Source: Lachnospiraceae bacterium (lineage in GTDB: Bacteria > Bacillota > Clostridia > Lachnospirales > Lachnospiraceae). From it: 57,810 bases of DNA. Location of the stretch: assembly GCA_017511045.1 (NCBI GenBank), contig JAFWLM010000118.1, forward strand, positions 1 to 57,810, given 5' to 3'. Within the stretch, counting starts at the first letter, position 1; each line of letters starts with the position of its first letter. Position numbers and translations under genes: made by a program. Below are positions 2,492 to 23,638 of this stretch, piece after piece. Below the pieces are notes generated by a model, which was not told the origin of the DNA, searched no databases, and saw only the letters and a program-made list of their open reading frames with translations.

Positions 2492-5400
2492 ATGTCACAG
2501 ACAAGTGTGGGATTGAAAACAACTGTACAAAAGCTGCTTGATAAAACAATCGTAAGCGGCACACTATTCAGCTTGGACAAGCTTTTAAATGCGCTTGGCG
2601 CGATTAATGCGGAATTCAAACAGGAATTGGCCAAGATGAATATCACAGTGCAGCTGAAACTTCGTGATAATACATATGGCAGATGGTTTCGTTTTAAAGA
2701 CGGAACCGTAGAAGGCCATGATGGTATCAATAAAGATGCAAGCGTTGAGATGATCTTTGAAGATGAAGATATAGCTAGGAGGGTCACTGCGCTGATCCGT
2801 GATCAGGCTGCATTTGCCAATGCGGCAAAACAGGGAGCGCTGGTGCTCAATGGACCGGATGCGGAAGCAATGTGGTTTTCTTCCCTGCTTCTTAAAGTCT
2901 TCGCGTTTGATGTTCTGTATTTGAAGAATTACGGAACAAAGATGGCGAACGGGGAGATGCGGTATGTGCAGGGGACCAATGGAGGTCCGTTGTTCGTTTA
3001 TGTCAAAGACGGAAAGATCGTCCGTATCACTCCAATGGACTTTGATGAAGAAGATGCCGATCCATGGACGATCAAAGCACACGGGAAAAAGTTTACGCCT
3101 CCGAAACGTGTAACGACCAATGCCTGTGCACAGAACTTTAAGAGCATGATCTATTCTCCGAACCGGATCCTGTATCCGATGAAGAGAGTTGATTTTGATC
3201 CGAAGAACGGAAATAGGAATACACAGAACAGAGGTATCTCCGGCTACGAAAGGATCAGTTGGGATGAAGCGCTTGATTTTGTTGCTGACGAAATCAAACG
3301 TGTACGCCAGACTTATGGATGCGGAGCAGTGTTCGGAAAAGCAGGCGGACATCATATGTGGGGAAATATCGGAAACTCACAGAGTAGTTCAAAGAGGTTC
3401 TTTAACTGCATCGGCGCAACGATGACAGAACTGAACCCGGACAGCTGGGAAGGCTGGGCGTGGGGCGCCGTCCATACATATGGACAGACTGCCCGTAACG
3501 GAAGTCCCGAGCCTTATAACACGGTAGAAGACTGTATGCAGAATGCCGACATGATCGTTTACTGGTCATCGGATCCGGAAACAACTGCAGGCGTTTACGC
3601 AGGCCAGGAAGGCACGATCAGAAGAGAATGGCTGAAGGATCTGGATATTAAGGTCGTCCATATCGATCCTTATATGAACTCGACTGCAACCTTTGTTGCC
3701 GGCAGATGGATATGCCCGAGACCGAATACGGATGTTGCACTCGCTGTTGCCATAGCAAATGTCTGGATGCATGAAGGTCTTTATGACAAAGACTATGTAA
3801 AGAAGAGAACCTATGCTTTTGATAAATGGGAAGAATATGTGACTGGTAAAACAGACGGCATTGATAAGACTCCGGAATGGCAGGAAGATATCACAGGTGT
3901 TCCTGCAAGAACCGTAAGAAATCTTGCCCGTTATTGGGGAACCCATAAAGTGTATCTTGCAGCAGGCGGTATCGGCGGATTCGGATCTGCCTGCCGCGGT
4001 GCGTTCGGAACAGAATGGGCCAGAGTTATGGTATGTCTGGTCGCTATGCAGGGCTATGGAAAGCCGGGCATCAACTTCGGAGGACTCCAATACGGAACTC
4101 CACTGGATACCAGGTTTTATTTCCCGGGTTATGCAGACGGCGGATTTTCCGGCGATTATATGACGACCGGTGCAGGTGTAAATATGTATAACAGAAGCCC
4201 GCAGTCCCCGTCCCTGAATTCCGAGACCCAGTCGATCTCAAGACTGCTTCTTCCGGAAGCACTTATGGAGGGACATGCTGAGTGGAATGCAAGAAGTTCA
4301 TACACCGTACAGGCCCAGTTCAATAAAAAGAAATATCCGGCAAACGGACATGCCGGAGTCAAAATGTATTATAACTACGGCGGCTCGAATATCGGTACTC
4401 AGCCGGAGTCCAAACGTTATGCAAAAATGTTCCGCTGCGACACGCTTGAGACGATCGTGAACCAGTCGATCTGGTTTGAGGGTGAGGCGAAATTTGCAGA
4501 TATCATCCTTCCGGCATGCACGAACTTTGAGCGTTGGGATATCGGTGAAGCAGCATCCTGCGGAGGCTATATCGACCGCTCCTTCCTGCAGAACAATTAC
4601 CGCGTGATCTTCGTGCAGCATAAGTGCATAGAACCGCTTGGAGAAAGCAAATCGGATTTCGATATTTTCCAGGAGATCGCAAACCGTCTTGGTCTGTGGC
4701 AGGTCTTTTCAGAAGGCAACTCCCAGTATGACTGGGTGAAACGCCAGTATGAGGCATCTGATATGGTTAAGATCATGCCGTGGAGCAAGTTCATAAAGAA
4801 GGGCTACTATGTTGTCCCTCCGCTTCCGGAAAACAGAAGAGATCCGGTCGCAATGAACTGGTACGCAGAAGGAAGAAAGAAAGATACACCGGAAATTACT
4901 CCGATTCCGGCAGAATACTACGGACAGTACGGAATGGGAATGCAGACTCCATCCGGGCTGATCGAATTTGAAAGCCAGCCGCTCAAACGTTTCGATCCGG
5001 ATGATGAAGAACGGCGTCCGATTTGCACCTACATCCACAGCTGGGAAGGCGTAGGTTCCGTACCATATACAAAGTACAAACTGCAGCTGATCTCACCGCA
5101 TGCGAAATTCTCGATGCATACGATGGGAGATCTGAAGGATTCCTTCGTCAACGATATCGATGAGCACCGGATGCTGATCGACGGACACCGCTTCTGGATA
5201 TTCCGAATGAATCCGAAGGATGCGGAAGCAAGAGGTCTGAAAGACAGAGATATTGTTGAGGTCTATAACGACAGAGGAAGAGTCCTCTGCGGACTTCATG
5301 TGACCGAGCGTGTACCGGAAGGAACCGTTCATTCCTGCGAGAGCTGTGCGGATTATAAGACGCTGGAAAATGATCCGGGAGGAGAAAATACCGTTGAGAT

Positions 5401-5518
5401 CATGGGATGCATCAATAACCTGACGCCGAAGCGCTTTATCGCAAAGAACTGCCACGGCATGGCAGCAAACTCCTGCCTTGTGGAAGTGAAAAAGTGGGAA
5501 GGGGGTAAAGTAGAATGA
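2492..5518 (+). CDS. SCP2-domain fused molybdopterin transhydroxylase-like large subunit 1
   Basis: A 1008-residue cytoplasmic molybdopterin oxidoreductase of the DMSO reductase superfamily, closest by eye to the large subunit of pyrogallol-phloroglucinol transhydroxylase (about 875 residues). There is no N-terminal Cys cluster and no Tat signal, as in that enzyme. Residues about 10-140 form an extra SCP2-like lipid-binding domain (RLRDN..GRWF.F pattern, then LNGPDAEAMWFSSLL), which explains the added length. His287, Asp317-Ser318-Trp319 and Tyr547 have exactly the spacing of His144, Asp174-Ser175-Trp176 and Tyr404 as I recall them from the Pelobacter enzyme, Ser being the Mo ligand. The position matching Tyr152 is Asn295 here. 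The stop overlaps the small-subunit start by 4 bp. Reaction could be hydroxyl transfer, hydroxylation or dehydroxylation of a hydrophobic aromatic; substrate unknown. Confidence 0.85.
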   Translation: MSQTSVGLKTTVQKLLDKTIVSGTLFSLDKLLNALGAINAEFKQELAKMNITVQLKLRDNTYGRWFRFKDGTVEGHDGINKDASVEMIFEDEDIARRVTALIRDQAAFANAAKQGALVLNGPDAEAMWFSSLLLKVFAFDVLYLKNYGTKMANGEMRYVQGTNGGPLFVYVKDGKIVRITPMDFDEEDADPWTIKAHGKKFTPPKRVTTNACAQNFKSMIYSPNRILYPMKRVDFDPKNGNRNTQNRGISGYERISWDEALDFVADEIKRVRQTYGCGAVFGKAGGHHMWGNIGNSQSSSKRFFNCIGATMTELNPDSWEGWAWGAVHTYGQTARNGSPEPYNTVEDCMQNADMIVYWSSDPETTAGVYAGQEGTIRREWLKDLDIKVVHIDPYMNSTATFVAGRWICPRPNTDVALAVAIANVWMHEGLYDKDYVKKRTYAFDKWEEYVTGKTDGIDKTPEWQEDITGVPARTVRNLARYWGTHKVYLAAGGIGGFGSACRGAFGTEWARVMVCLVAMQGYGKPGINFGGLQYGTPLDTRFYFPGYADGGFSGDYMTTGAGVNMYNRSPQSPSLNSETQSISRLLLPEALMEGHAEWNARSSYTVQAQFNKKKYPANGHAGVKMYYNYGGSNIGTQPESKRYAKMFRCDTLETIVNQSIWFEGEAKFADIILPACTNFERWDIGEAASCGGYIDRSFLQNNYRVIFVQHKCIEPLGESKSDFDIFQEIANRLGLWQVFSEGNSQYDWVKRQYEASDMVKIMPWSKFIKKGYYVVPPLPENRRDPVAMNWYAEGRKKDTPEITPIPAEYYGQYGMGMQTPSGLIEFESQPLKRFDPDDEERRPICTYIHSWEGVGSVPYTKYKLQLISPHAKFSMHTMGDLKDSFVNDIDEHRMLIDGHRFWIFRMNPKDAEARGLKDRDIVEVYNDRGRVLCGLHVTERVPEGTVHSCESCADYKTLENDPGGENTVEIMGCINNLTPKRFIAKNCHGMAANSCLVEVKKWEGGKVE

Positions 5519-6471
5519 AAAAGTTTCATATGATCATAGATCTTGAAAAATGTGCCGGCTGCTTTAACTGCTTCTTAGCATGTAAAGACGAGCATGTAGG
5601 AAACGAGTGGCTTCCGTATACGAAAGAACAACAAAAGCATGACCTGAAATGGATCGATGTGAAAGTGCATGAAAGAGGTGTTGCTCCCTATACTGAGATC
5701 ACTTATGTAACGCAGACCTGCCAGCATTGTGACAATGCCCCCTGCGAGAAAAAGTATCCGGAGGTCTTTCAGAAGAGAAGCGACGGGATCATGCTGATCG
5801 ATATCAATAAAGCGAATGATCCGAAATATGCAGATGCATGTCCGTATGGATGCGTCAGTTGGAATGAGACGGCTCAGAATGTACAGAAATGTACCGGATG
5901 TGCACACCTGATCGACGGCGGCTGGAAAGAGCCGAGATGTGTGCAGGCATGTGCGACCAGAGCAATGCAGACCGTTTTTTGTGAGGACGCGGAATGGGAC
6001 AGACTCGTGGAACGACAGGGATTAAAACCGATCACAGACGGTTCAAATAAACCGAGGATCCTCTACAAGAACCTCTATATGTACAATAAATGCTTTGTCA
6101 AAGGTGTTGTTTCCACTTATGTGGATGGCCTTGAAGAAGGTGTGATCGACGCAAAGGTGGAACTTAAGATCGGAAATGAGACGATCTATGAATGCAGGAC
6201 GGATTACTTAGGAGAGTTCTATATCGACCGTATTCCGAAAAATACAGGGAAAATGGCAGTAGTCATTACAGCAGAAGGTGCAGAGCCGCTCACAAGAGAC
6301 TTTGAAATTCAGGATAAAAGCATTGTCCTTGATCCGATCCTGATCGGAGAGGGCGAAGCAAAGGCAAACGTGATCCTTCCGAACGAGCATGCTTTGCAGC
6401 AGGCATTAGATCATATGACCAGCTATGATGCCGAAGACGCAAGGAAAGCATTCGCAAAAGAGAAGAAGTAA
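5515..6471 (+). CDS. Transhydroxylase-like Fe-S small subunit 1
   Basis: A 318-residue electron-transfer subunit partnering the molybdoenzyme just upstream (ATGA overlap). Residues about 10-190 are ferredoxin-like with Cys groups CAGCFNC..C, CQHCDNAPC and CTGC(x11)C(x3)C. The second group ends KYP where NrfC/DmsB-type proteins have CP, so three [4Fe-4S] clusters rather than four are expected, as reported for the transhydroxylase beta subunit. Residues about 205-285 (TDYLGEFYIDRIPK) form a beta-sandwich of the Cna-B/transthyretin kind, also present in the Pelobacter small subunit. No signal peptide. It is clearly paralogous to 9815-10801 but lacks that protein's Lys-rich tail. Confidence 0.87.
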   Translation: MKKFHMIIDLEKCAGCFNCFLACKDEHVGNEWLPYTKEQQKHDLKWIDVKVHERGVAPYTEITYVTQTCQHCDNAPCEKKYPEVFQKRSDGIMLIDINKANDPKYADACPYGCVSWNETAQNVQKCTGCAHLIDGGWKEPRCVQACATRAMQTVFCEDAEWDRLVERQGLKPITDGSNKPRILYKNLYMYNKCFVKGVVSTYVDGLEEGVIDAKVELKIGNETIYECRTDYLGEFYIDRIPKNTGKMAVVITAEGAEPLTRDFEIQDKSIVLDPILIGEGEAKANVILPNEHALQQALDHMTSYDAEDARKAFAKEKK

Positions 6472-6487
6472 ACAGTATTTCTGAATA

Positions 6488-6525
6488 AAGGAGACAGGGG
6501 ACAGAGAACCGTCCCCTGTCTTCCT
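6488..6525. repeat. REP-like palindrome, possible terminator
   Basis: GACAGGGGAC (6493-6502) and GTCCCCTGTC (6511-6520) form a perfect 10-bp stem around AGAGAACC, extendable to about 13 bp. Related palindromes built on GGAGACAG / CTGTCTCC recur at 18931 and 21693. It lies 17 bp past the small-subunit stop and may end the first transhydroxylase transcript, though a T run is missing. Confidence 0.6.
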
Positions 6526-6605
6526 GTGAATAATTCCAAAATAATCTGAAATTCATTCCAAAAAGTAATGGATAAATTTTATACAATTTCTCTTTTACTG
6601 GGTAA

Positions 6606-6785: not shown

Positions 6786-9700
6786 ATGACTACTTTATCT
6801 CAGGAAGCATTGGATAAGTCATTGAATATCTTCAACAAAACGATCGTCGGAGGAACCTTATTCACACTGGATAAGCTCCTCAATGTTCTGGGGACTCTTT
6901 CGCCGAAATTTAAGGCAGAACTCGCAGAGCATAATGTGACCGTTCAGTTGAGACTTCGTGACAACAGCTATGGCCGCTGGTTCAAGTTCGACAATGGGAA
7001 TGTTTCCGGTCATGACGGGATCAATCCGGATGCAGTTGTAGACATGGTCTTTGAGGATGCAGCTACTGCACGCCGTGTAACTGCACTGATCAGAAGTCAG
7101 TTTGATTTCGTCAATGCTGCAAAGCAGGGACAGCTTGCTTTGAATGGCCCGGATGCGGAAGCAATGTGGTTTTCCTCATTGCTGCTGAAAGTATTTGCAT
7201 TCGACGTTCTGTATCTGAATAATTACGGAACGAAGATGGCAAACGGCGAGACCCGTTATACAACAGGAACAAACGGCGGTCCGTTATTTGTTTATGTAAA
7301 GGATGACAAAATCGTCCGTGTAACTCCGATCGATTTCGACAATGAAGATCCGGATATGTGGACGATCGAAGCAAAGGGACAGAAACTGACTCCTCCGAGG
7401 AGAACAACAGTTGCACCTTATGCGCAGGGGTGGAAACAGATGGTCTATTCTCCGGACAGATGTCTGTACCCGATGAAGAGAGTAGACTTTGATCCGGACG
7501 GAGACCGCCATTATGAAAACCGTGGTGTTTCCGGCTATGAGAGGATCAGCTGGGATGAAGCTCTCGATATTGTAGCAAAAGAAATGATCCGTATCCGTAA
7601 GAACTACGGACCCGGTGCGATCTTCGCATCGACCGGATCCCACCATAACTGGGGAAATATCGGATATTATCTTTCCTGTGCAAAGCGTTTCTTCAACGTT
7701 ATCGGCGCAACGATGTGTATGCATAACCCGGACAGCTGGGAAGGCTGGGCATGGGGCGGCCAGCACCATTTTGGCGGCTCTGCACATAACGGCGGAGCAG
7801 AAGCATACAGCACAGTTGAAGACTGCTTGCAGAATTCTGAATTCATCGTATTCTGGTCCTCTGATCCGGAATCGACTGCCGGTAACTATGCCGGACAGGA
7901 AGGTACGATCCGTCGTGAATGGATCAATAAATTAGGAATCCCTGTCGTTCATATCGACCCATACCAGAACGCAACAGCAGCCTTTGTCAGAGGCCGCTGG
8001 ATCTGCCCGAGACCAGCAACAGATGCTGCACTTGGTATCGCGATCGCAAATGTCTGGATGAAAGAAGATCTGTACGACAAGGATTATGTAAAGAAGAGAA
8101 CATACGGCTTCGAAAAATGGGAAGAGTATGTATTAGGAAAGACGGACGGAATCGACAAGACTCCGGAATGGCAGGAAGATATCACCGGTGTTCCGGCAAG
8201 AACCGTTCGTGCACTTGCAAGATACTGGGGAACCCACAAGACCTATCTTGCCTGCGGGTCCATGACCAGTTTTGGTTCTGCCTGCCGTACCGCATTCGGT
8301 ACTGAGTGGGCACGTGTCTGCGTCTGCCTGATCGCAATGCAGGGCTGGGGCAAACCTGGCGTTAATTTAGGAACGCTGCAGTTTGGTACTCCGCTGGATG
8401 TGAAGTTCTTCTTCCCTGGTTATGCAGACGGCGGTTTCTCCGGCGACTTTATCGGAACCGGTGCCGGCGTTGCGCTTTACAACAGAATGCCGCAGACTCC
8501 TTCTGTAAGTTCCGAATATCAGGCAATCCCGCGTCTGATGCTTCCGGAAGCAATCATGTCCAAGGGAGAAGCAGATATCACCTGGCATCAGCTTGGTGTT
8601 TACTCCGTACACTCCCAGTTCATGCAGCTTCATTATCCGGCTCCGGGTCATGAAAGAGTCCGCATGTACTACAAGTACGGCGGATCCCATATGGGAACAC
8701 AGCCGGAATCCAAACGTTATGCAAAACAGTATCGCTGTGACAGCTTAGAGTTCGTCGTCAACCAGTCCGTGTGGTTCGAGGGTGAGGCAAGATTTGCGGA
8801 TATTATCCTTCCTGCATGTACGAACTTTGAGCGTTGGGATATCGGAGAGTTTGCTTCCTGCGGCGGTTATATTCCGAACTCTTATCTGCAGAACAACTCC
8901 CGTGTGATCTTCGTACAGCATAAATGTATTGAGCCGCTCGGTGAGAGCAAGGCGGACTTCGATATCTTCCAGGAAGTTGCCAACAGACTGGGACTCTGGC
9001 AGGTATACTCCGAAGGAAATACCGAGTATGACTGGGCAAAGAGATATTATGAGGCAACGGATATGGCAAGAGTCATGCCGTGGGGCAAGTTCATTAAGAA
9101 GGGCTATTACGTTGTTCCGCCGCTTCCGGCAAACAGACGTGATCCGGTTGCTTACCGCTGGTTTGCGGAGGGGAGAAAGAAAGATACACCGGAGCTTACA
9201 CCGCTGCCGTCCGAATATTACGGACGTTACGGCGAGGGTATGCAGACGCCGTCCGGCCTGATCGAGTTTGAAGCTCAAACCTTAAAGAGATTTGATCCGA
9301 ATGATGAAGAGAGACTTCCGATCTGTACTTATATTCACAGTTTCGAAGGTGTCGGATCTGATCTTTACGCAAAATATAAATTACAGATGATCTCACCTCA
9401 CTCAAAGTATTCCTTCCATACGATGGGTGACTTGAAAGATACGAACATCAACGATATTCAGGAACACAGACGTCTGATCGACGGCCATCGCTTCTGGGTA
9501 TTCCGTATGAATACAAAAGATGCGGAAGAAAGAGGCCTGAAAGACGGAGATGTCGTTGAGGTTTATAACGACAGAGCAAAAGTTCTCTGTGCGTTAGAGA
9601 CGACCGAACGTGTTCCGAAGGGCGTATGCCACTCCTATGAGTCCTGTGCTGACTATGTCACACTGGAAAATGATCCGGGTGGAGATGATACTACCGAGAT

Positions 9701-9818
9701 CATGGGCTGCGTCAACAACCTGACTCCTAGCAGATTCCTTACAAAGCACGCACATGGCTTAGCGGTTAACTCCTGCCTTGTGGAAGTCAGAAAATGGGAA
9801 GGAGGTAAAATCGGATGA
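6786..9818 (+). CDS. SCP2-domain fused molybdopterin transhydroxylase-like large subunit 2
   Basis: A 1010-residue paralogue of the protein at 2492-5518, similar along its full length. It has the same order: SCP2-like domain at about residues 10-140, then the four-domain molybdopterin fold. Putative catalytic residues are His286, Asp316-Ser317-Trp318 and Tyr546. Unlike copy 1, the residue matching Tyr152 of the Pelobacter transhydroxylase is Tyr294, so this copy keeps more of the known active site. It starts at an ATG after GGAAAGGAAGG and overlaps its small subunit by 4 bp. It leads the operon with polyprenyl synthase, HdrCBA and FlxDCBA, which suggests that electrons from NADH reach this enzyme or that its product is a prenylated lipid. 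No Fe-S motif in the large subunit. Substrate unknown. Confidence 0.87.
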   Translation: MTTLSQEALDKSLNIFNKTIVGGTLFTLDKLLNVLGTLSPKFKAELAEHNVTVQLRLRDNSYGRWFKFDNGNVSGHDGINPDAVVDMVFEDAATARRVTALIRSQFDFVNAAKQGQLALNGPDAEAMWFSSLLLKVFAFDVLYLNNYGTKMANGETRYTTGTNGGPLFVYVKDDKIVRVTPIDFDNEDPDMWTIEAKGQKLTPPRRTTVAPYAQGWKQMVYSPDRCLYPMKRVDFDPDGDRHYENRGVSGYERISWDEALDIVAKEMIRIRKNYGPGAIFASTGSHHNWGNIGYYLSCAKRFFNVIGATMCMHNPDSWEGWAWGGQHHFGGSAHNGGAEAYSTVEDCLQNSEFIVFWSSDPESTAGNYAGQEGTIRREWINKLGIPVVHIDPYQNATAAFVRGRWICPRPATDAALGIAIANVWMKEDLYDKDYVKKRTYGFEKWEEYVLGKTDGIDKTPEWQEDITGVPARTVRALARYWGTHKTYLACGSMTSFGSACRTAFGTEWARVCVCLIAMQGWGKPGVNLGTLQFGTPLDVKFFFPGYADGGFSGDFIGTGAGVALYNRMPQTPSVSSEYQAIPRLMLPEAIMSKGEADITWHQLGVYSVHSQFMQLHYPAPGHERVRMYYKYGGSHMGTQPESKRYAKQYRCDSLEFVVNQSVWFEGEARFADIILPACTNFERWDIGEFASCGGYIPNSYLQNNSRVIFVQHKCIEPLGESKADFDIFQEVANRLGLWQVYSEGNTEYDWAKRYYEATDMARVMPWGKFIKKGYYVVPPLPANRRDPVAYRWFAEGRKKDTPELTPLPSEYYGRYGEGMQTPSGLIEFEAQTLKRFDPNDEERLPICTYIHSFEGVGSDLYAKYKLQMISPHSKYSFHTMGDLKDTNINDIQEHRRLIDGHRFWVFRMNTKDAEERGLKDGDVVEVYNDRAKVLCALETTERVPKGVCHSYESCADYVTLENDPGGDDTTEIMGCVNNLTPSRFLTKHAHGLAVNSCLVEVRKWEGGKIG

Positions 9819-10801
9819 AAAAGTTTCATATGATTATTGACCTTGAGAAATGTGTAGGCTGCTTTAACTGCATGTTAGCCTGCAAAGATGAGCATGTTGG
9901 GAACTCCTGGCTCCCTTATACCCAGGAAGCTCCGAAGCATGACCATAAATGGATCTGCCCGACACTTACTGAAAGAGGCGAGGCTCCGTATACAGAAGTA
10001 ACTTACGTTACCAGAACCTGTATGCACTGCGACAATGCTCCGTGCGCAAAGAAATATCCGGACGTCTTCATTAAGAGAAGCGACGGTATCATGCTGATCG
10101 ATTATAAGAAAGCAAAAGATCCAGAGATCGCTTCCGCATGTCCTTATGGAATGATCCACTGGAACGAAGAGCTGGAGGTTGCTCAGAAATGTACCGGATG
10201 CGCACACCTTCTTGATGAAGGCTGGAAAGAGCCAAGATGCGTACAGACCTGTCCGCTCCGTGCACTGCAGACCGTTTTCTGCGATGATGCAGAGTGGGAG
10301 CAGATCATTGAGAAGCAGGGTCTGAAAGCTATTACAGACGGGACGAATAAGCCGCGTGTAATGTACAAGCATCTGTACTTCTACAACAAGTGCTTTGTCA
10401 AAGGAGCGCTGTGCTTTGATAAGGACGGTATTGAAGAGGCAGCAATTGGCGCTAAGGTAGAGCTGATGGTCGGAAACACCGTCGTTGCTGTAACTGAAAC
10501 CGACTTCCTCGGCGAGTTTTACATTGACCGGATCCCGAAAAACTCCGGCGTCATGAAGATCAAAGCGACGTTTGAAGGCTTCGATCCGCTGGAAAAAGAA
10601 TTTGAGATCAAGGATAAGAGTGTTGTTTTAGATGCTCTGAAACTCGGCGGCGGCGAAGGAAAACCGGCTGTCATCCTTCCGAATGAGCATGCAAATCAGC
10701 AGGCATTAGACCATATGGTTCCGAAGGATGTCGAGGCAGCAAAGAAAGCCTTTGGGCTTGCAGATAAAAAAACGGCAAAAAAGAAAGCTTCTAAAGAGTA
10801 A
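9815..10801 (+). CDS. Transhydroxylase-like Fe-S small subunit 2
   Basis: A 328-residue partner of the large subunit just upstream. Cys groups CVGCFNC..C, CMHCDNAPC (with KYP replacing the fourth Cys) and CTGC(x11)C(x3)C predict three [4Fe-4S] clusters. The C-terminal beta-sandwich is marked by TDFLGEFYIDRIPK. It ends in a Lys-rich tail absent from paralogue 1, perhaps for contact with an acidic partner or the membrane surface. Only 2 bp separate its stop from the polyprenyl synthase start, so expression is tightly linked. Confidence 0.87.
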   Translation: MKKFHMIIDLEKCVGCFNCMLACKDEHVGNSWLPYTQEAPKHDHKWICPTLTERGEAPYTEVTYVTRTCMHCDNAPCAKKYPDVFIKRSDGIMLIDYKKAKDPEIASACPYGMIHWNEELEVAQKCTGCAHLLDEGWKEPRCVQTCPLRALQTVFCDDAEWEQIIEKQGLKAITDGTNKPRVMYKHLYFYNKCFVKGALCFDKDGIEEAAIGAKVELMVGNTVVAVTETDFLGEFYIDRIPKNSGVMKIKATFEGFDPLEKEFEIKDKSVVLDALKLGGGEGKPAVILPNEHANQQALDHMVPKDVEAAKKAFGLADKKTAKKKASKE

Positions 10802-10803
10802 GA

Positions 10804-11910: not shown

Positions 11911-11911
11911 A

Positions 11912-13437: not shown

Positions 13438-13438
13438 T

Positions 13439-15882: not shown

Positions 15883-16733
15883 TGGCAGGCTTAACAGAAG
15901 CTCAGGTTCAGGACCGGATTCGTGAAGAAGCGAAAAAGGCTCTGGCAAGCGGTGAAGTAAGTGCCGTTGTCGGATGGACCTCCACCCGTTTTGAAGATAA
16001 AACAAAACCGTATTTTGCGGAAACAGAAGCAGAGTGCGATCTCCTAGTATGGAATAAATACTGCATCAACGGCACAGGAAAATTTGCCCTTGATGACAGA
16101 TACCCGGAGAAAAAGATCGCGATCATTGCCAGAGGCTGCGACTCCCGTGCATTAAACAGAATGCTGCGGGACAAACAGCTCAAGAGAGAGAACCTCTATA
16201 TTATCGGCGTGGTCTGCGATGGAAAAGAAAACGCAGTCTGCGAAGGATGTCAGCATAAAAACCCGCTGACATATGATGTACTGATCGGAGAGCCGGTAGA
16301 AGAGCAGATGAACGCGGAACGGTTCAAAGAAATCGAGGCGTTTGAAAAGCTGACTCCGGACCAGAGATATGAATACTGGGCAAAACAGTATGACAAATGC
16401 ATTCACTGCTATGCCTGCAGAAACGCATGTCCGGCATGCAACTGCGTGGAATGTTATGCAGACCAGTACCGTACCGGATGGCAGGGAAAGGCAGCAGACA
16501 GAGAGCAGAATCAGGTTTACGGTCTTACCAGAGCGTTCCATGTCGGTGACCGCTGCATCGAGTGCGGAGAGTGTGAACGTGTCTGCCCGATGAACCTTCC
16601 GATCATGCGTCAGACAAAGAAAATGCTGAAAGACATCAACGATCTTTTCGGTGATTATGAGTGCGGACTTCCGGATGATGCAATGCCGGTTTTAGGCACC
16701 TATAAGCTCGAAGATCCGGATGAGTTTATGTAG
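15882..16733 (+). CDS. flxC: FlxC-like ferredoxin-domain subunit
   Basis: A 283-residue protein. The N-terminal half (GWTSTRFEDKTKPYF, IARGCDSRALNRMLRDKQL) resembles FrhB/FlxC-type proteins. The C-terminal half holds two cluster motifs, CIHCYACRNACPAC and CIECGECERVCP. In the Flx complex it is one of two ferredoxin-like subunits bridging FlxA to FlxD. The assignment to FlxC rather than FlxB rests on length and order and could be swapped. Confidence 0.85.
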   Translation: MAGLTEAQVQDRIREEAKKALASGEVSAVVGWTSTRFEDKTKPYFAETEAECDLLVWNKYCINGTGKFALDDRYPEKKIAIIARGCDSRALNRMLRDKQLKRENLYIIGVVCDGKENAVCEGCQHKNPLTYDVLIGEPVEEQMNAERFKEIEAFEKLTPDQRYEYWAKQYDKCIHCYACRNACPACNCVECYADQYRTGWQGKAADREQNQVYGLTRAFHVGDRCIECGECERVCPMNLPIMRQTKKMLKDINDLFGDYECGLPDDAMPVLGTYKLEDPDEFM

Positions 16734-16745
16734 GAGGTGAGGATC

Positions 16746-17819
16746 ATGACATTAGCGAAAAAAGATTTAAATAAAGCGTTGGAGATCCTCAGCAAAGACG
16801 CAGTCGTCTTTGCCCCGACCTTCGACATGATCGAAGACCCGTCCGAAGGCGGACAGACCATGGGCGAGAAGAAATTCATGCCGTATAAAGAAGGAATGTT
16901 CATCGCGCTTGACGGTCCGAATACCGTAAAACCGCCAAAGGATGTCCTTTTCCCGAACGTGGAAAAAATGTACCGCTATAAGACAGGCGAGAATGCGGAA
17001 ATTGTTGAGATCTTCCCCGAAGATACAAAGAAGATCCTCTTTGGAATCCGCCCCTGCGATGCACGCAGCATCGAGGCGATGGACAAGGTGTTCTTTACCA
17101 AGGACTATGTGGATTCCTATTACGCAAAACGCCGTGAGAACGTAGTCATTGTTTCCATGGGATGCGTAGAACCGGAGCGTACCTGCTTCTGTGATTCCAT
17201 GGGACTTGATCCGAACAATGCGCCGAATGCGGATGTCATGATGAATGTGGCAAAGGATTCTGTAGATGCGTTTATTCTCGAAGCTTATACGGATAAGGGA
17301 AAAGAACTGTTAGAGCAGTTAAAAGATTTAGATGGAGGAGCAGGAGAAGCGAAACGCGATGTGAAATGCTCCCTGCAGATCAACAAGGATCCGGAGCTGG
17401 ACAAGAAACTGGCCGGCATGTTTGAACATCCGATCTGGGATAAGATCACGAAAGGATGTATCGGATGCGGAACCTGTACCTTTGTATGTCCGACCTGTTA
17501 CTGCTTCGATATCGATAACGAAAACTACGGAGCAGAGGGCTGCAAATACCGTTGCTGGGATTCCTGTATGTTCAGCGACTATACCAGAATGGCAGGCGGT
17601 GCAAACCCGCGTCCGACCAAGAAGGAGCGTCTGAGAAACCGCTATATGCATAAGCTCAGCTATTTCAATGAGAGATACGGCGAAACCTTATGTGTCGGCT
17701 GCGGAAGATGCGTTGCGAACTGCCCGTCCCATCTCGATATCTCTGAGTTTATCGAAAAGGCAACGGCAGCAGATCCGAATGCGGAAACTTATACCGATGC
17801 ACCGGGAAAGGAGGCGTAA
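16746..17819 (+). CDS. flxB: FlxB-like ferredoxin-domain subunit
   Basis: A 357-residue protein resembling sulfhydrogenase beta subunits and AsrA. Motifs: GIRPCDARSIEAMD in the middle, then [4Fe-4S] groups CIGCGTCTFVCPTC and CVGCGRCVANCP. I chose the ATG at 16746 because AGGAGG at 16732-16737 sits 8 bases before it; an in-frame GTG at 16737 overlaps that site. The ribosome site also overlaps the flxC stop. Expected role is electron transfer within the Flx-Hdr complex. Confidence 0.87.
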   Translation: MTLAKKDLNKALEILSKDAVVFAPTFDMIEDPSEGGQTMGEKKFMPYKEGMFIALDGPNTVKPPKDVLFPNVEKMYRYKTGENAEIVEIFPEDTKKILFGIRPCDARSIEAMDKVFFTKDYVDSYYAKRRENVVIVSMGCVEPERTCFCDSMGLDPNNAPNADVMMNVAKDSVDAFILEAYTDKGKELLEQLKDLDGGAGEAKRDVKCSLQINKDPELDKKLAGMFEHPIWDKITKGCIGCGTCTFVCPTCYCFDIDNENYGAEGCKYRCWDSCMFSDYTRMAGGANPRPTKKERLRNRYMHKLSYFNERYGETLCVGCGRCVANCPSHLDISEFIEKATAADPNAETYTDAPGKEA

Positions 17820-17822
17820 GAT

Positions 17823-18668
17823 ATGGCAGTAGATCATGAGTGCTCATGCAATAAGAATCCATTGGTTCCGTCTTTGTGCAAGGTCATTGATGTGAAACAG
17901 GAAACACCTGATATCCAGACCTACACGATCCAGACGCTCGATGGCAAGAAGCCTTTCAGCCCGCTTCCGGGACAGCTGGCAATGATCTCGCTCTTAGGCG
18001 TCGGCGAGGCAATGTTCTCAATTACGGCGCAGGGAGAGGATTATATTCAGAGTGCAATCAAGAGAACAGGTATGCTGACGGATGAATTCCATCAGATGCA
18101 GCCGGGGCAGGTGATCGGTGTAAGAGGACCTTACGGAAACCATTTCCCAATCGACGATTTAAAGGGAAAAGACGTACTGTTCATCGGCGGCGGTGTTGGC
18201 ATCGCGCCGGTACGTTCCATGATCCGTTACGCGTTTGAACACAGAGAAGATTTCGGACATATCGACATCCTTTACGGAGCCCGTTCGTCCGCGGATATCT
18301 GTTTCAAACAGGACTGTCTGGAAGACTGGCCAAAACAGCCGGATACCAATGTGTACATTACAACAGATGTTCCGTCCGATGACTGGGACGGACATGTAGG
18401 CTTTGTTCCTCCTTATATCGAAGAGGTGGGATTCAAGCCGGAAGGTAAAAAAGTAGTTCTTTGCGGACCGCCTATTATGATCAAATTAGGTTCGGCGAGC
18501 CTGTTAAAGCTCGGCTTCGCAAAAGAAGATATTATCACGACCTTAGAGCTCCGTATGAAATGCGGAATCGGAAAATGCGGTCGTTGTAATATAGGAAGTA
18601 AATTTGTATGTTTAGACGGTCCGGTATTTACTTTATCCGAACTGGATGAACTGCCGGATGAGAAATAG
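17823..18668 (+). CDS. flxA: FlxA-like FAD/NAD(P)H-binding subunit
   Basis: A 281-residue ferredoxin-reductase-like protein, similar to the sulfhydrogenase gamma subunit and PyrK. It has an FAD-binding barrel (PGQLAMISLLG), a nucleotide domain (FIGGGVGIAPVRSM, VLCGPPIM) and a C-terminal [2Fe-2S] group (MKCGIGKCGRCNIG...C). It is the likely entry point for NADH electrons. Preceded by AAAGGAGG and followed 10 bp later by the small membrane protein gene. Confidence 0.9.
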   Translation: MAVDHECSCNKNPLVPSLCKVIDVKQETPDIQTYTIQTLDGKKPFSPLPGQLAMISLLGVGEAMFSITAQGEDYIQSAIKRTGMLTDEFHQMQPGQVIGVRGPYGNHFPIDDLKGKDVLFIGGGVGIAPVRSMIRYAFEHREDFGHIDILYGARSSADICFKQDCLEDWPKQPDTNVYITTDVPSDDWDGHVGFVPPYIEEVGFKPEGKKVVLCGPPIMIKLGSASLLKLGFAKEDIITTLELRMKCGIGKCGRCNIGSKFVCLDGPVFTLSELDELPDEK

Positions 18669-18678
18669 GAGGAATAAA

Positions 18679-18903
18679 ATGGGCTTAGGAAAATCTTTAG
18701 TTAAATTAGGTGTTTTAGCAGGCGCAGCTTACGGCGGATACTATCTGTACAAAAAATATGTAAAGAAAGACAATGTTCCGCAGAAGGATTTTGACGAGCT
18801 TGCAGACGTAAACTTCGATTATGATGATGACGCTGCAAAAGAAGAAAGCTTCGCAGACAAGATCAAAGCTGCAGCAGAAAAACAGCTGAACAAGATTAAG
18901 TAA
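18679..18903 (+). CDS. Small membrane protein, 74 residues, copy A
   Basis: Not a family I recognise. ATG at 18679 follows AGGAGG at good distance. Residues about 3-27 (GKSLVKLGVLAGAAYGGYYL) look like one membrane helix or a strongly membrane-binding segment, followed by a Lys-rich stretch, an acidic middle (FDYDDD) and an amphipathic Lys/Ala C-terminus. It differs from copy B (20377-20601) at only 4 of 74 residues. It is the last gene of the Hdr-Flx operon, so it may anchor that soluble complex to the membrane. Function is inference only. Confidence 0.8.
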   Translation: MGLGKSLVKLGVLAGAAYGGYYLYKKYVKKDNVPQKDFDELADVNFDYDDDAAKEESFADKIKAAAEKQLNKIK

Positions 18904-18930
18904 AAGTGAGAACCATTGTTCTATAGGGGA

Positions 18931-18961
18931 GAAGGAGACAGAGCTGTTCTCTGTCTCCTTC
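18931..18961 (+). terminator. Hairpin ending the Hdr-Flx operon; REP-like
   Basis: AAGGAGACAGAG (18932-18943) and CTCTGTCTCCTT (18949-18960) form a perfect 12-bp stem with a 5-nt loop, 28 bp past the small-protein stop. Only a mixed CCTTCCTT tail follows, so it may be an imperfect terminator. Related to the palindromes at 6488 and 21693. Confidence 0.55.
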
Positions 18962-19007
18962 CTTACCTTTCCGGCAGGGAAGAACAAAACCTGAAGGAGA
19001 ATGAAAG

Positions 19008-20219
19008 ATGCTCGTTTTCAAAAATGCTAAACTGATCGATGGAACAGGAAAAGAACCTGTAGAAAATGCTTCGATTCTGATTGAACATGGCCGTTTTCGG
19101 GAGATCGGGACCGATCTTTCATATCCTGGGGATACAATAGTTATTGACCTGAAGGGTAAGACCGTTATTCCGGGACTTATCGATGCCCATATTCACATTA
19201 ACGGATCAAGCAGGCTGGACCGTCCAGGGGCAAGTCATCTTATCCCAAGCTATAACTTTGCGGAAATGCGGGAAGGTTGTCTCAGATGGGGTGTTGTTGC
19301 TGTCCGTTCCTGTGGGCAGTTTGTAGAAGAAACACTTGCTTTCAGGGAGGGCGTAGAAAACGGTACGATTGAGCGTTCTCCACGTGTTTGTATGTCCGGC
19401 CCTATGTTCCAGTCTCCGGGCGGACATCCCTGTTATACCGTTTTTATGTCGGATCCGGATGTGGAACAGTTCGCATGTGCGATCGTGAAGGAAGATACCG
19501 AGATCGAGCCGATCATCAAAAAGTCCAAAGAGCAGGGCGTGGATTTTACAAAGGTCTTCTATGCACATTTGAATAAGATGGATTATCCGAATCCGGTGCC
19601 GCGAATCTCGAAGAAGAAACTGCAGGAAATAATTGATATTTCCCATCGTTATGGGCTTTCTGTTACCGTGCACGTTGATTGTCCTGAAGAGATGAAGGAT
19701 GCTGTCGAACTCGGAGCTGATGTGATCGAGCATATGATCGGAGCGGGCGAGACGCAAAATGATTTTTCGGATGAACTGGTTGCCCTGACGAAACAAAGCG
19801 GTGCCATTATTGATCCCACTATGATCTCTATTAAGCGTTTTGATCCTTTAAACGATTCAGCACCTTCTGTCTGGAATGCTGTGAAAAAGGCTGTGATGAA
19901 ATGCTATCATGCTGGAATTCCGCTGGCCGTTGGCTGCGATGCAGGCATACCGTTTGTCCCGTTTGGGGAGGCTGTACATGATGAAATGGCTTGCCTGAAC
20001 GATGTCGGGATTCCTCCGCTTGAAGTAATCACAATGGCAACAAGCGGCAATGCGAAACTACTGGGTATGGATGATCATATAGGAACGATCGAGCCGGGAA
20101 AAGATGCAGATCTGATCGTTTTAGAAAAAGATCCGCTCGAGGACATTAAAAATACGAAAACCATTGAACTGGTCTTCTTAAAGGGCAGAGTTGTTACTGA
20201 TTGTATAAGCGAAATGTAG
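19008..20219 (+). CDS. Amidohydrolase family protein
   Basis: A 403-residue metal-dependent hydrolase of the imidazolonepropionase/dipeptidase-like amidohydrolase group. The N-terminal strand (MLVFKNAKLIDGTG), the metal pair DAHIH (His61, His63), later His in TVHVD and VIEHM, and Asp in VGCDAG give the usual binuclear or mononuclear site. The tail (GTIEPGKDADLIVLEKDP) is classic. ATG at 19008 is preceded by AAGGAGA 7 bases away. It lies between the two copies of the small membrane protein and may hydrolyse an amide or lactam; substrate unknown. Whether it belongs to the surrounding system is unclear. Confidence 0.88.
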   Translation: MLVFKNAKLIDGTGKEPVENASILIEHGRFREIGTDLSYPGDTIVIDLKGKTVIPGLIDAHIHINGSSRLDRPGASHLIPSYNFAEMREGCLRWGVVAVRSCGQFVEETLAFREGVENGTIERSPRVCMSGPMFQSPGGHPCYTVFMSDPDVEQFACAIVKEDTEIEPIIKKSKEQGVDFTKVFYAHLNKMDYPNPVPRISKKKLQEIIDISHRYGLSVTVHVDCPEEMKDAVELGADVIEHMIGAGETQNDFSDELVALTKQSGAIIDPTMISIKRFDPLNDSAPSVWNAVKKAVMKCYHAGIPLAVGCDAGIPFVPFGEAVHDEMACLNDVGIPPLEVITMATSGNAKLLGMDDHIGTIEPGKDADLIVLEKDPLEDIKNTKTIELVFLKGRVVTDCISEM

Positions 20220-20254
20220 TCTGCATCGGAGTATCATTCGGAAACTTTTTTCGA

Positions 20255-20297
20255 TTGACGATTAAGCGGAAAACGATATACTATTTATATAATAGTA
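20255..20297 (+). promoter_or_regulatory. Promoter and inverted repeat before small protein B operon
   Basis: TTGACG (20255-20260) and TATACT (20277-20282) with 16-bp spacing form a strong promoter. TACTATT (20279-20285) and AATAGTA (20291-20297) make a perfect 7-bp inverted repeat with 5 bp between arms across the -10 end and start point, a plausible operator. Confidence 0.55.
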
Positions 20298-20376
20298 AGT
20301 GAGTTCGAGGGTTCAGATGAATCGATAGTTTCGCTATATGATGCGTATGATCTTTCGAAAAAACAGGAGGTTTAAA

Positions 20377-20601
20377 ATGGGCTTAGGAAAAGCATTAGTA
20401 AAATTAGGAGTAGTAGCAGGTGCTGCTTACGGCGGATACTATCTTTACAAAAAATATGTAAAGAAAGACAATGTTCCACAGAAAGATTTCGATGATCTTG
20501 CAGACGTTACCTTCGATTATGATGATGACGCAGCAAAAGAAGAAAGCTTTGCAGACAAGATCAAAGCTGCTGCAGAAAAACAGCTGAACAAGATTAAATA
20601 A
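20377..20601 (+). CDS. Small membrane protein, 74 residues, copy B
   Basis: Near-identical to copy A (18679-18903): S6A, L13V, one E-to-D and one N-to-T. ATG at 20377 follows AGGAGG. Same layout: hydrophobic N-terminal segment with AGAAYGGYYLYKKY, acidic middle, basic amphipathic C-terminus. Codons differ at many synonymous positions while the protein is almost unchanged, pointing to purifying selection on the protein. It is the first gene of an operon with the UbiA-type prenyltransferase, whose GTG start lies 6 bases past this stop. Confidence 0.82.
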   Translation: MGLGKALVKLGVVAGAAYGGYYLYKKYVKKDNVPQKDFDDLADVTFDYDDDAAKEESFADKIKAAAEKQLNKIK

Positions 20602-20607
20602 GACAAC

Positions 20608-21687
20608 GTGAAGAAAATAAAATTCTGGTTTGACAATGCACGGTCGGTATCATTGCCTCAGAGCATGATGCCGGCTCTTGTCGCGGCTTTTCTTGCGACG
20701 AAATATTCAGACTTTAAATGGTATCTGGCCCTGGTCTCTCTGATTGGAATCGCCTTTGCCCATTTGAGTCTGAATTTATTTGACGATTATTTTGATTTCA
20801 GAAACGCTGAACAGGGTGATCGTACGGCTCTTGTAAGAGAGGGCTTTCGTGCGATGACAGCAAAATGTCCGCCGCTGCAGGATGGAACAGTAAGCCCTAA
20901 AAAGTGGTTTTTAGTCAGCTGCCTGTTTGGGGTCATCGCCTGCTGTTTTGGCGTGCCTGTTCTGATCCTTCGCGGAGCAACGATCCTTTGGGTCGTTCTT
21001 GGTGTGGCCGTATTAGGCCTTTTCTATTCCGCGCCTCCGTTAAAGCTCGGCTATCATGGCCTTGGAGAGCTGATCATCGGCTGCATTTTCGGACCGGGGA
21101 TCTTTATCGGGATGAACCTTGCTGCCGCAGGAGAGTTCCATCTTTCAGAAGTCCTGCTGTCTATCGCCATGGGACTGATCGTCGTTGCAATCCTTTATGT
21201 ACATTCCATTATGGATTATGCGGCTGATACAAAGGCAGGCAAGAGGACTCTGGCATGGCTGGTCGGCTGCCATGCAACGATACCGAAAGCAGGGAAAGAG
21301 GTGCCGGCACCATCAGAAGAAAAAGTGAAAGCAGGGCAGAACCGGCAGTATATTGCACTTGCGGCAATCATTTTCCTGCCGTATGTGCTGGTGATCCTTG
21401 CAGTTGTGATCCAAGCGGTTCAGCCATATTATATTGTGGCTCTTCTTGCGCTTCCATGGTCCATCGATCTTTTCCGTTCGATGCTGGCTTTCAAAAAAGA
21501 CCCGTTCGCACCCGTAGAGAAGAAGTGGTGGTACGGAAGCTTTCAGATGTGGGAAGCGATCAAGGAAAACCATCTCGACTGGTTTATGCTGAGATGGCTC
21601 CTGGCGCAGCGTATCAGCATCGTATTCAGTATATTATGCATCCTCGCGTCGATCGCGGAGATGATCATTAAACTGACAACACTGTAG
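20608..21687 (+). CDS. UbiA/MenA-family prenyltransferase
   Basis: A 359-residue polytopic membrane protein of the UbiA superfamily, which transfers a polyprenyl chain to an aromatic or other acceptor. The first Asp-rich motif is NLFDDYFDF (Asn56, Asp59, Asp60, Asp63) and the second DYAADTKAGKRTLA (Asp203, Asp207), matching the Mg-diphosphate sites of MenA/UbiA. About eight or nine hydrophobic segments. A linker at about 228-250 (Lys/Glu/Pro-rich) lies between helices. The GTG start at 20608 lacks a clear ribosome site but is probably coupled to the preceding gene. The acceptor is unknown; together with the long-chain prenyl synthase it implies a prenylated, quinone-like lipid. Confidence 0.85.
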   Translation: MKKIKFWFDNARSVSLPQSMMPALVAAFLATKYSDFKWYLALVSLIGIAFAHLSLNLFDDYFDFRNAEQGDRTALVREGFRAMTAKCPPLQDGTVSPKKWFLVSCLFGVIACCFGVPVLILRGATILWVVLGVAVLGLFYSAPPLKLGYHGLGELIIGCIFGPGIFIGMNLAAAGEFHLSEVLLSIAMGLIVVAILYVHSIMDYAADTKAGKRTLAWLVGCHATIPKAGKEVPAPSEEKVKAGQNRQYIALAAIIFLPYVLVILAVVIQAVQPYYIVALLALPWSIDLFRSMLAFKKDPFAPVEKKWWYGSFQMWEAIKENHLDWFMLRWLLAQRISIVFSILCILASIAEMIIKLTTL

Positions 21688-21692
21688 TTAGT

Positions 21693-21725
21693 GGAGGAGA
21701 CAGAGAACCGTCCCCTGTCTCCTTG
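21693..21725. repeat. REP-like palindrome (shortened arm)
   Basis: AGGAGACAG (21695-21703) pairs with CTGTCTCCT (21715-21723). The loop AGAACCGTCCC matches the right part of the 6488 element, so this copy looks like the same repeat with part of the left arm missing. It sits between the prenyltransferase and radical SAM genes inside an apparent operon and may reduce downstream transcription. Confidence 0.6.
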
Positions 21726-21747
21726 TATAAACAGAAAGAATAATCAT

Positions 21748-22755
21748 ATGAAATTCACACAATTATGCTATCTTCCAATATGGTTTTTAAGGAATGTGAT
21801 CTTTAAAGAGCATGGACCACTGCAGACAGTCCTGTTCATTACGGATTACTGCAACTTGAAATGTAAACATTGTTTCGAGATGGGACATGCCTGCACTATG
21901 CAGAAATCCTATCAGCAGATCAAGGAAGAACTGGAGTATTCCTACCGTATGGGCAGCCGCTTTGTAGATTTTGAAGGCGGAGAGCCAACGCTTTGGAGAC
22001 AGCCGGTCAGCCGGACGAAAGACTCCTGGACTCCGAAACGGGGGATCAGCGGAAGAGTAGATAAAAACGGAACGCCGATCCTTGACATCAATGATCTGAT
22101 CATCCTGGCAAAGAAGATCGGTTTTTATTCCTGCACGGTAACGACAAATGCACAGACTGATTTTTCCTGGGTGAATGCTGATCTGATCTGGATGAGCCTG
22201 GATGGATATAAAGAGTATCATGACCGGGTCCGCGGAGAAGGCGCCTTTGAGAAGCTGGATAAAAACGCCCGTATCTTTGCGGAAAAACAGAAACAGAAAA
22301 AGGCTGCCGGCAAGAAGCCCTGTGTGCTCGGATGCAATATGGCGATCAACCGGATCAACAAAGACTCAGTTGGTGATGTGCTGAATTATGTGAAGCAGAG
22401 CCGCTTTATTGAAAGCATTGCATTGAATTTCCATACACCGTATCCCGGAACAGAAGAACTGATGCTGGATGATAAGACCAAGGCATTTGTGATCGACAGG
22501 ATCATCGCCTATAAGAAAGCCGGGTATCCGATCCAAAACAGTGTAAGCGGTCTTAAGATCATGAAAAAACGCGGCTTCAAGAAAAACTGCTGGGTCAGCA
22601 ACTTTATCATTACTGACGGAACCCGTTTTAAGACCTGCCCGGGTGAGACTTTGGGAATCTGCGATGATTGCGGTTTCTGTATGGCAGGTGAGATGTACAG
22701 TGTCATGCATTTGAAGCCGGATACGCTGCTGGCAGGAATGTCACTGAGATTATAA
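21748..22755 (+). CDS. Radical SAM enzyme
   Basis: A 335-residue radical SAM protein. The cluster motif CNLKCKHC (Cys35, Cys39, Cys42) follows FITDYCN, and GGEP (EGGEPTLW) is the SAM-binding glycine motif. The C-terminal Cys-rich part (FKTCPGETLGICDDCGFC) could bind a second cluster, as in SPASM or HpnH-like proteins. The chosen ATG at 21748 begins the conserved part; an in-frame GTG at 21691 lies within the repeat and is unlikely. It lies 4 bp before the DUF445 gene and downstream of the prenyltransferase. A role in ring or chain modification of the prenylated lipid is a guess. Confidence 0.83.
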   Translation: MKFTQLCYLPIWFLRNVIFKEHGPLQTVLFITDYCNLKCKHCFEMGHACTMQKSYQQIKEELEYSYRMGSRFVDFEGGEPTLWRQPVSRTKDSWTPKRGISGRVDKNGTPILDINDLIILAKKIGFYSCTVTTNAQTDFSWVNADLIWMSLDGYKEYHDRVRGEGAFEKLDKNARIFAEKQKQKKAAGKKPCVLGCNMAINRINKDSVGDVLNYVKQSRFIESIALNFHTPYPGTEELMLDDKTKAFVIDRIIAYKKAGYPIQNSVSGLKIMKKRGFKKNCWVSNFIITDGTRFKTCPGETLGICDDCGFCMAGEMYSVMHLKPDTLLAGMSLRL

Positions 22756-22759
22756 AAAT

Positions 22760-23638
22760 ATGTTACATACAATCCTTCATTACATTTCCGGACCGGTCAT
22801 CGGTGCGGTCATCGGAGCTTTTACAAATTATCTTGCGATCAAGATGTTGTTCAGGCCTTTAAAACCGGTAAAGATCGGCCGCTTTACGCTGCCGTTAACG
22901 CCGGGTGTGATACCGCGTCATCAGGAGGCTCTGGCCGACGCGCTTTCCAATACTGTTTATGAAAATTTCTTCACCAACACAGATATCGAAGGGATTTTTA
23001 TGACTGATGAAATGACAGACAGGTTCTCGGAGGGAATCTACCAGCTGCTCGAGGGGGTCGATCTTTCCTCTGTTGGAGACGGACTCAGCGAGGAATCCAA
23101 ACTGAAAGTAAAGGAAGCAATCTATCGGAAGATCCACGAAATGATCCTGAACACGGATATCTCCGGCATCGTTTCAAATGAAACGGCAAAGATCATCCGC
23201 ACAAAAGTAAAAGGCGGACTGGTCTCCAATATTATCTTAAGTGAAGAGATTACGGGCCGGATCGCATCTTATGCAGGCAGACAGGTTCAGGATTACATCC
23301 GGGAGAATGATGTGGAAATCCTGTATCCGATCCTTGAAAAGCAAAGTTCGGAACTGAAAAAGATGAACTTAGCTGATCTTACCGGGTCTGTTGGTATTGA
23401 CCGTGAGATCATCATGGAAACGATAAAAAAAGGGTACCGGAGCTTTATGGGCGACACGAAGCAGAAGATTGCGGAGACGTTCCATATCAAAGAATTTATC
23501 CATGAAAAGATCATGGAACTGGATCCGGGCGAGATCGAGCGTCTGGTCAATAAAGCGATCAAACGGGAAATGAACTATCTTGTTTATCTTGGCGCTCTTT
23601 TAGGTTTTATCATCGGCATTATTAATATCTTTGTTTAA
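22760..23638 (+). CDS. DUF445 family membrane protein
   Basis: A 292-residue protein of the DUF445 (YheB-like) family. The N-terminal membrane segment GPVIGAVIGAFTNYLAIKMLFRP and the following PLTPGVIPRHQEALADALS are characteristic. A second membrane segment closes the protein (LGALLGFIIGIINIFV), with a long helical part between. No clear ribosome site is present, so it is probably translated by coupling with the radical SAM gene 4 bp upstream. Biochemical function of the family is not established; its place here suggests a membrane-lipid related role. Confidence 0.85.
   Translation: MLHTILHYISGPVIGAVIGAFTNYLAIKMLFRPLKPVKIGRFTLPLTPGVIPRHQEALADALSNTVYENFFTNTDIEGIFMTDEMTDRFSEGIYQLLEGVDLSSVGDGLSEESKLKVKEAIYRKIHEMILNTDISGIVSNETAKIIRTKVKGGLVSNIILSEEITGRIASYAGRQVQDYIRENDVEILYPILEKQSSELKKMNLADLTGSVGIDREIIMETIKKGYRSFMGDTKQKIAETFHIKEFIHEKIMELDPGEIERLVNKAIKREMNYLVYLGALLGFIIGIINIFV

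Follow-up and report, generated by a model that had tools for sequence, protein, structure and literature searches.

What would a molybdoenzyme of the transhydroxylase type, fused to a putative lipid-holding domain, be doing among prenyl-tail genes in the Lachnospiraceae, which like the Oscillospiraceae are regarded as fermenters? The question is raised by contig JAFWLM010000118.1 of a Lachnospiraceae bacterium (GenBank assembly GCA_017511045.1; 2.04 Mb, 81% complete), analysed over its 57,810 nucleotides and termed the window (contig C85 of genome G000). Between positions 2492 and 23638 of the forward strand, the window carries two fusions of an SCP2-like N-domain to an AthL-type molybdoenzyme, together with genes for iron-sulfur (FeS) subunits, a polyprenyl diphosphate synthase, an Hdr-Flx module, and a UbiA-superfamily prenyltransferase. 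Gene content and homology suggest that this cluster is an undescribed oxygen-free quinone system in Clostridia without the usual quinone pathways. Neither an SCP2-molybdoenzyme nor a link between transhydroxylase and quinones was described in the open-licence literature searched, outside which most subscription papers lie.

Conservation of the fusion beside prenyl genes

Fusions of the prenyl-linked branch (class A) were located by a peptide-pattern scan (FAFDVLYL and NYGTKM[PA]N) of one genome per species that returned 18 loci, including those of the type strains Parasporobacterium paucivorans DSM 15970 and Sporobacter termitidis DSM 10068. Other fusions (class B) lack or vary both patterns and the scan is therefore biased to class A and uninformative on the relative frequency of the two classes. 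Gene presence was surveyed in 18 class A genomes (G000, G001, G002, G005-G008, G034, and G457-G466), a set overlapping the loci without being identical to them (G000 is outside the loci and G003 outside the genomes). Within class A, the co-occurrence expected by the initial annotation was borne out: the fusion was followed by an FeS gene and then a prenyl synthase gene in all 18 loci (L046 ends inside the synthase) and 15 of the 18 genomes encoded UbiA on the contig that carries the fusion. The gene order in P. paucivorans was fusion, FeS, HepS-like, synthase, HdrCBA, FlxDCBA, UbiA, and UbiE. Occurrence in two isolate type strains ruled out that the operon is a chance assembly or binning artefact. 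Some neighbor gene names in the surveyed loci were assigned by eye with no family search behind them, and genes masked by overlapping spurious open reading frames (ORFs) were taken from separate searches (the P. paucivorans synthase, HdrC, and FlxB, and the G034 UbiE).

The UbiA family (PF01040) was present in 18/18 class A genomes. The copy sharing the fusion's contig in G465 was a C-terminal piece at the contig end, contig ends hid the placement in G464 and G466, and the G462 gene was on another contig, directly before UbiE. The window UbiA is divergent, scoring 95 bits against NF004751 (cut-off 264) with two Asp motifs, and MenA models were the best for all seven cluster UbiAs scored (the window and six others), of which one Sporobacter copy passed TIGR00751. 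UbiE-type genes were identified at E < 1e-40 in five of the 18 genomes (G034, G457, G459, G462, and G466), directly after UbiA in three of these carriers, and weaker PF01209 matches to other methyltransferases occurred in all 21 genomes searched. The P. paucivorans UbiE, encoded at the operon end directly after UbiA, scored 255 against 235 bits for the demethylmenaquinone methyltransferase model NF001243 and passed TIGR01934. A radical SAM homologue followed UbiA in 11/18 genomes (the seven same-genus genomes, G459, G463, G464, and G466). PDB and NCBIfam searches with the radical SAM protein showed general radical SAM similarity only. S. termitidis also has a separate locus (L156) resembling those for extracellular electron transfer (EET), which encodes a prenyl synthase, a MenA-like UbiA, and two proteins named by eye as NDH-2-like (with Pyr_redox_2) and NusG-like.

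The window polyprenyl synthase retains both DDxxD motifs and has an N-terminal extension that corresponds to a separate ORF of 107-162 amino acids in nine distant relatives. A profile of this ORF matched polyprenyl synthases in PDB (best E 0.0016), Pfam gave no match in the four sequences run, and we infer a small subunit of the HepS/HexA type. In 391 genomes of the window's class, the HepS-like profile matched the window genome only, apart from a single weak match inside an 807-codon frame that was taken as spurious.

Hdr-Flx genes followed in 14/18 genomes as far as the fetched stretch reached, and in a further one, G464, they were split over two contigs. The stretches examined in G458, G460, and G462 showed no Hdr-Flx genes and had FixC-type genes (ETF:quinone oxidoreductase-like) instead. 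The G462 protein has an ETF-QO ubiquinone-binding domain over the cut-off (E 5.8e-8); the G460 protein passes PRK10015 and not the FixC model PRK10157, and has a FixX-like neighbor (Fer4_ETF_QO, sub-threshold); and the G458 protein is 71% identical to that of G460, with EtfB and EtfA genes present. G461 encoded Hdr-Flx plus Etf-type genes, the latter recognized by similarity to those of Sporobacter.

A classical menaquinone pathway (Men or Mqn) was rejected for class A as MenD and MqnA/D were not found in the 18 genomes. MenD exceeded the cut-off in none of them (17 had sub-threshold matches to the wider family only). PF02621 (MqnA/D-type) exceeded it in three (G005, G006, and G008), and their identification as MqnA was rejected as the proteins are signal-peptide lipoproteins encoded beside ABC permease and ATPase genes. 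The class A cluster consequently covers the making of the tail, its transfer by UbiA and, in some members, methylation of the ring, with no recognizable head-group synthesis, which points to salvaged dihydroxynaphthoate (DHNA) or another head group. The claim that a lineage usually regarded as lacking quinones makes or uses a quinone-like lipid thus drew support from the UbiE/MenG-type or FixC-type genes of some members and from the missing MenD and MqnA/D; its ring hydroxylation is the weaker part, as the MenA/MenG-like enzymes need none.

Fused molybdoenzymes, their SCP2-like domain, and phylogeny

The two transhydroxylase-like molybdoenzymes with an SCP2-like fusion were confirmed. SCP2Mo1 (2492-5518) matched the large subunit of pyrogallol hydroxytransferase (PDB 4v4c_A) at E 5e-281 and its partner FeS1 (5515-6471), an AthS-type subunit, matched the small subunit (4v4c_B) at E 2.8e-53. 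SCP2Mo2 (6786-9818), 74% identical to SCP2Mo1, is the copy common to the rest of the genus according to Pfam, same-genus comparison, and the tree. It is followed by FeS2 (9815-10801; AthS-type by Pfam and 68% identical to FeS1), the C-terminus of which has a weak CarboxypepD_reg-like Pfam match below the cut-off (E 0.0022). Both fusions contain Pfam Molybdopterin domains and an AhtL-like_1st domain (E 1.7e-27 in SCP2Mo1 and 8.5e-28 in SCP2Mo2). Residues H144, D174, S175, W176, and Y404 (AthL numbering) were conserved in 30/30 fused rows of the alignment and presumably include the Mo-ligand serine and the catalytic H144, D174, and Y404. Position 153 is R or K in AthL and five of the eight unfused rows, compared to none of the 30 fused rows, which carry Y, F, W, H, or S there. 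SCP2Mo1 has N/S at positions 152/153, which sets it apart from the remaining 29 fused rows, and this duplicate may therefore act on a different substrate. The window genome also encodes two unfused AthL-type enzymes on contig C106 (L181 and L182).

The N-domain (approximately residues 1-150) was assigned by profile comparison. Against Pfam SCP2 (PF02036), full-length SCP2Mo1 scored 14.4 bits (E 0.048; gathering threshold 21.3) and its isolated N-domain 18.7 bits, full-length SCP2Mo2 gave no match, and of 12 isolated N-domains two, the better at E 0.0021, matched at E ≤ 1. When the 12 N-domains were combined into a profile, it aligned with that of 16 stand-alone SCP2 proteins over 130 columns (probability 88, P 3.7e-7) compared to a best P of 0.0066 in 30 column-shuffled controls. 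The 16 proteins were drawn from 28 loci, the remainder being without a clean short ORF or untried. A PDB profile search with the domain gave two matches, at E 0.65 and 1.8. Taken together, the N-domain is likely homologous to SCP2 and a candidate lipid-holding domain.

Besides class A, fusions were found in G093, G314, and G367 (three copies) among 398 sampled genomes of the phylum. Matches occurred in 10 of the 82 genomes of G314's class, comprising eight fusions including G314 and only short SCP2-type matches in G899 and G870. A tree of 38 sequences placed all 30 fused rows in one group (100/99) and class A in a single branch (100/100; stem 0.35), with class B paraphyletic to it under the midpoint root used; the N-domain was retained in 12 of the 30 fused rows, two duplicate L151 rows were dropped, and branches among the unfused rows are long. 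This topology fits a single fusion origin and later recruitment into a prenyl operon. The class B fusions of G314, G883, and G887 (L071, L172, and L174) are flanked by Crp/Fnr-type regulators, which by eye we take to resemble CprK.

Gene organization of the window

The remaining genes described by the initial annotation, i.e., prenyl synthase, hdrCBA-flxDCBA, UbiA, radical SAM, and DUF445, were recovered by Pfam and motif analysis at or near the positions it gave. FeS2 is followed by the HepT-like polyprenyl diphosphate synthase with its N-terminal extension (10804-11910; Pfam, NCBIfam, and motifs) and then, all by Pfam, HdrC (11912-12472), HdrB with two CCG stretches (12469-13437), HdrA (13439-15418), FlxD of the FlpD family (15409-15882), a FlxC-like FeS protein (15882-16733), a FlxB-like FeS protein (16737-17819), and a FlxA-like NAD-binding subunit (17823-18668), the Flx names being deduced from domain content and gene order. 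The run closes with smem1 (18646-18903), a small protein with, by eye, one hydrophobic stretch and an acidic tail, and from SCP2Mo2 through smem1 adjacent genes overlap or lie no more than three bases apart. An amidohydrolase gene (19008-20219; Pfam) separates smem1 from smem2 (20338-20601), which also has one hydrophobic stretch by eye. Then come the MenA-like UbiA (20608-21687; Pfam and NCBIfam), the radical SAM protein (21691-22755; Pfam), and the DUF445 protein (22760-23638; Pfam), with gaps of no more than six bases from smem2 onward.

A duplicated small membrane protein had been thought to link two operons. The duplication itself is real (smem1 and smem2 are 92.5% identical), but among seven same-genus genomes or contigs including the window (six of the seven genomes being 87-96% complete), the duplication, the amidohydrolase, and the second molybdoenzyme gene were exclusive to the window and the other six contigs had a single operon without them. 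The operon of the window species is thus broken by an amidohydrolase gene with one smem copy on either side (18646-20601). A terminator-like hairpin of 13 pairs is located at 18931-18961, and the window as a whole has 26 terminator-like sites compared to 16.4 expected. A promoter scan of the window was at chance level (23 versus 24.3 expected) and an Rfam search of it gave no match.

Near the operon, URO-D-family genes were identified by Pfam at 1285-2295 and 49948-50955, while the gene at 20-1036 was considered URO-D-type by 28% identity to that at 1285-2295 (no Pfam match at 1e-10); they are perhaps methyltransferases for methoxylated aromatics. Further downstream, CoA-transferase, acyl-CoA dehydrogenase, and EtfBA genes occupy 51965-56677.

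Proposed lipid chemistry and comparison with known systems

In the proposed mechanism, the two-part polyprenyl diphosphate synthase would make the tail, the MenA-like UbiA would join it to an aromatic acid (salvaged DHNA or another one), and the ring would then be modified by UbiE or, in the window genus, perhaps by the radical SAM protein. Hdr-Flx, or the FixC-type genes in three relatives, would oxidize NADH in an electron-bifurcating reaction whose high-potential side is likely the quinone system, such that the lipid would be reduced by this module. The AthL/AthS-type enzyme would hold the lipid via its SCP2-like domain and may act on the ring by oxygen-free hydroxyl transfer or removal, by analogy with UbiT and UbiU-UbiV. 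The conserved cluster, the linkage to UbiA, the UbiE/MenG-type and FixC-type genes, and the missing MenD and MqnA/D make it probable that the cluster makes a prenylated quinone-type lipid that is also used. That the fused molybdoenzyme works with this lipid at all is moderately favored, and about half of that expectation goes to a change of the lipid ring rather than to electrons drawn from the lipid. The roles of reworking the ring and of taking electrons to reduce a phenol are inseparable by sequence, and the whole chain including the ring chemistry is put forward tentatively, its chances being well short of even.

Several observations weigh against this mechanism. The SCP2 domain scores under the Pfam threshold, 13 of the 18 class A genomes, those of the window genus included, gave no UbiE at E < 1e-40, and MenA/MenG-type chemistry needs no ring hydroxylation. 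Furthermore, the linkage of fusion and prenyl genes holds for class A but not for the older class B, where prenyl genes were near none of 12 copies (9-37 kb surroundings), and the view that the fusion always accompanies prenyl genes was rejected. The same surroundings had no match to UbiA, UbiE, HepS-like, prenyl synthase, radical SAM, FixC, HdrB, or FlxD, the sole match among the queries being DUF445 in G887. The fusion therefore seems older than its link to prenyl genes. In addition, the class B copies of G884 and G852 lie among phloroglucinol-type catabolic genes for a short-chain dehydrogenase/reductase (SDR), 3-hydroxyacyl-CoA dehydrogenase, cyclase, BKACE, thiolase, and CoA-transferase (Pfam was applied to seven proteins of G884 and one of G852, and the others were named by eye).

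These neighbors bear on the possibility that the fused enzyme transhydroxylates or dehydroxylates small soluble phenols; its SCP2-like domain would then have a structural role or shuttle the substrate, and the prenyl genes would serve an independent quinone, encoded in the same operon by coincidence. The enzyme body is indeed closest to AthL, and both P. paucivorans and S. termitidis degrade methoxylated aromatics. The gene set adjoining the G884 and G852 copies is that of phloroglucinol degradation (PMC10470551). Nevertheless, the fusion directly precedes the FeS and prenyl synthase genes throughout class A, which moreover forms one branch whose stem of 0.35 is what a functional shift would leave. 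An unfused AthL of the window genome is also encoded beside genes for thiolase, SDR, 3HCDH, BKACE, and the acetate/butyrate kinase family, in what is likely a cluster for fermenting gallate/phloroglucinol (no cyclase gene was noticed in the surrounding 34 kb; one was seen by eye in G005). This enzyme could cover the soluble-phenol role, for which the fused enzyme is then not needed, and the explanation is considered unlikely.

The cluster might alternatively turn DHNA from neighboring cells into (demethyl)menaquinone, with the SCP2-Mo/FeS enzyme as a soluble quinol-linked oxidoreductase that reduces a phenolic acceptor via its SCP2 domain. UbiA and UbiE resemble MenA and MenG, a hint at a naphthoquinone, for which salvaged DHNA would be a simpler starting ring than one hydroxylated anew; the EET-like locus of Sporobacter with its NDH-2-like gene (by eye), prenyl synthase, and MenA-like UbiA is in keeping with this; and the NADH-oxidizing bifurcation modules require an electron sink. 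External DHNA can be used by a bacterium unable to make quinones (PMC10746273). On the other hand, no membrane-anchor subunit was seen beside the molybdoenzyme genes, and four of 10 class B genomes had neither MenD nor MqnA/D (six had one or the other). In G314's class, MenD or MqnA/D was no commoner in fused genomes (3/7, or 4/8 including G314) than in 13 hand-picked unfused genomes of one family (5/13; G899 and G870 excluded), so that presence of the fusion does not just follow that of a classical quinone pool, and strict dependence on such a menaquinone pool was rejected. Salvage of this kind is possible, though rather improbable. A further-reaching form of the ring chemistry, in which UbiA prenylates a plant-derived polyhydroxybenzoate, SCP2-AthL/AthS transfers a hydroxyl to the position para to one already there, and the hydroquinone so formed is methylated by UbiE or the radical SAM protein to give a new benzoquinone carrier for Hdr-Flx or FixC-type bifurcation, is judged quite unlikely.

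If the proposed quinone system is correct, Lachnospiraceae and Oscillospiraceae of gut and sediment would own a quinone system, with consequences for the coupling of polyphenol metabolism to energy conservation, and molybdenum-based oxygen-free ring chemistry on a lipid would stand alongside UbiUVT. Were the benzoquinone form true, these bacteria would reach a benzoquinone carrier by a route that depends on molybdenum and needs no oxygen.

Among known systems, the DHNA-salvage loci of EET bacteria share a prenyl synthase and a MenA-like gene without MenD, and this salvage is used by Lactiplantibacillus (PMC10746273). The cluster differs by its molybdoenzyme, its Hdr-Flx or FixC-type genes, and UbiE in some members, and no NDH-2 gene was noticed in it. 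The molybdenum-dependent catechol dehydroxylases of Eggerthella and Gordonibacter are likewise bis-molybdopterin guanine dinucleotide enzymes acting on phenolic rings, and form a separate clade away from pyrogallol hydroxytransferase (PMC7028382). AthL/AthS (PDB 4v4c) is alike in the whole molybdoenzyme body, the FeS subunit, and the conserved catalytic residues, while the fused enzyme has the SCP2-like N-domain, a side chain at 153 that is aromatic or small instead of arginine, and an operon with prenyl and bifurcation genes. UbiT with UbiU-UbiV carries out oxygen-independent ring hydroxylation in ubiquinone synthesis and a ubiT-ubiU gene fusion is known in Zymomonas (PMC6747719). The class A cluster would be analogous in logic, with an SCP2 lipid holder joined to an oxygen-free ring hydroxylase, but employs an AthL-type molybdoenzyme rather than a U32-family FeS protein and occurs in Clostridia rather than proteobacteria.

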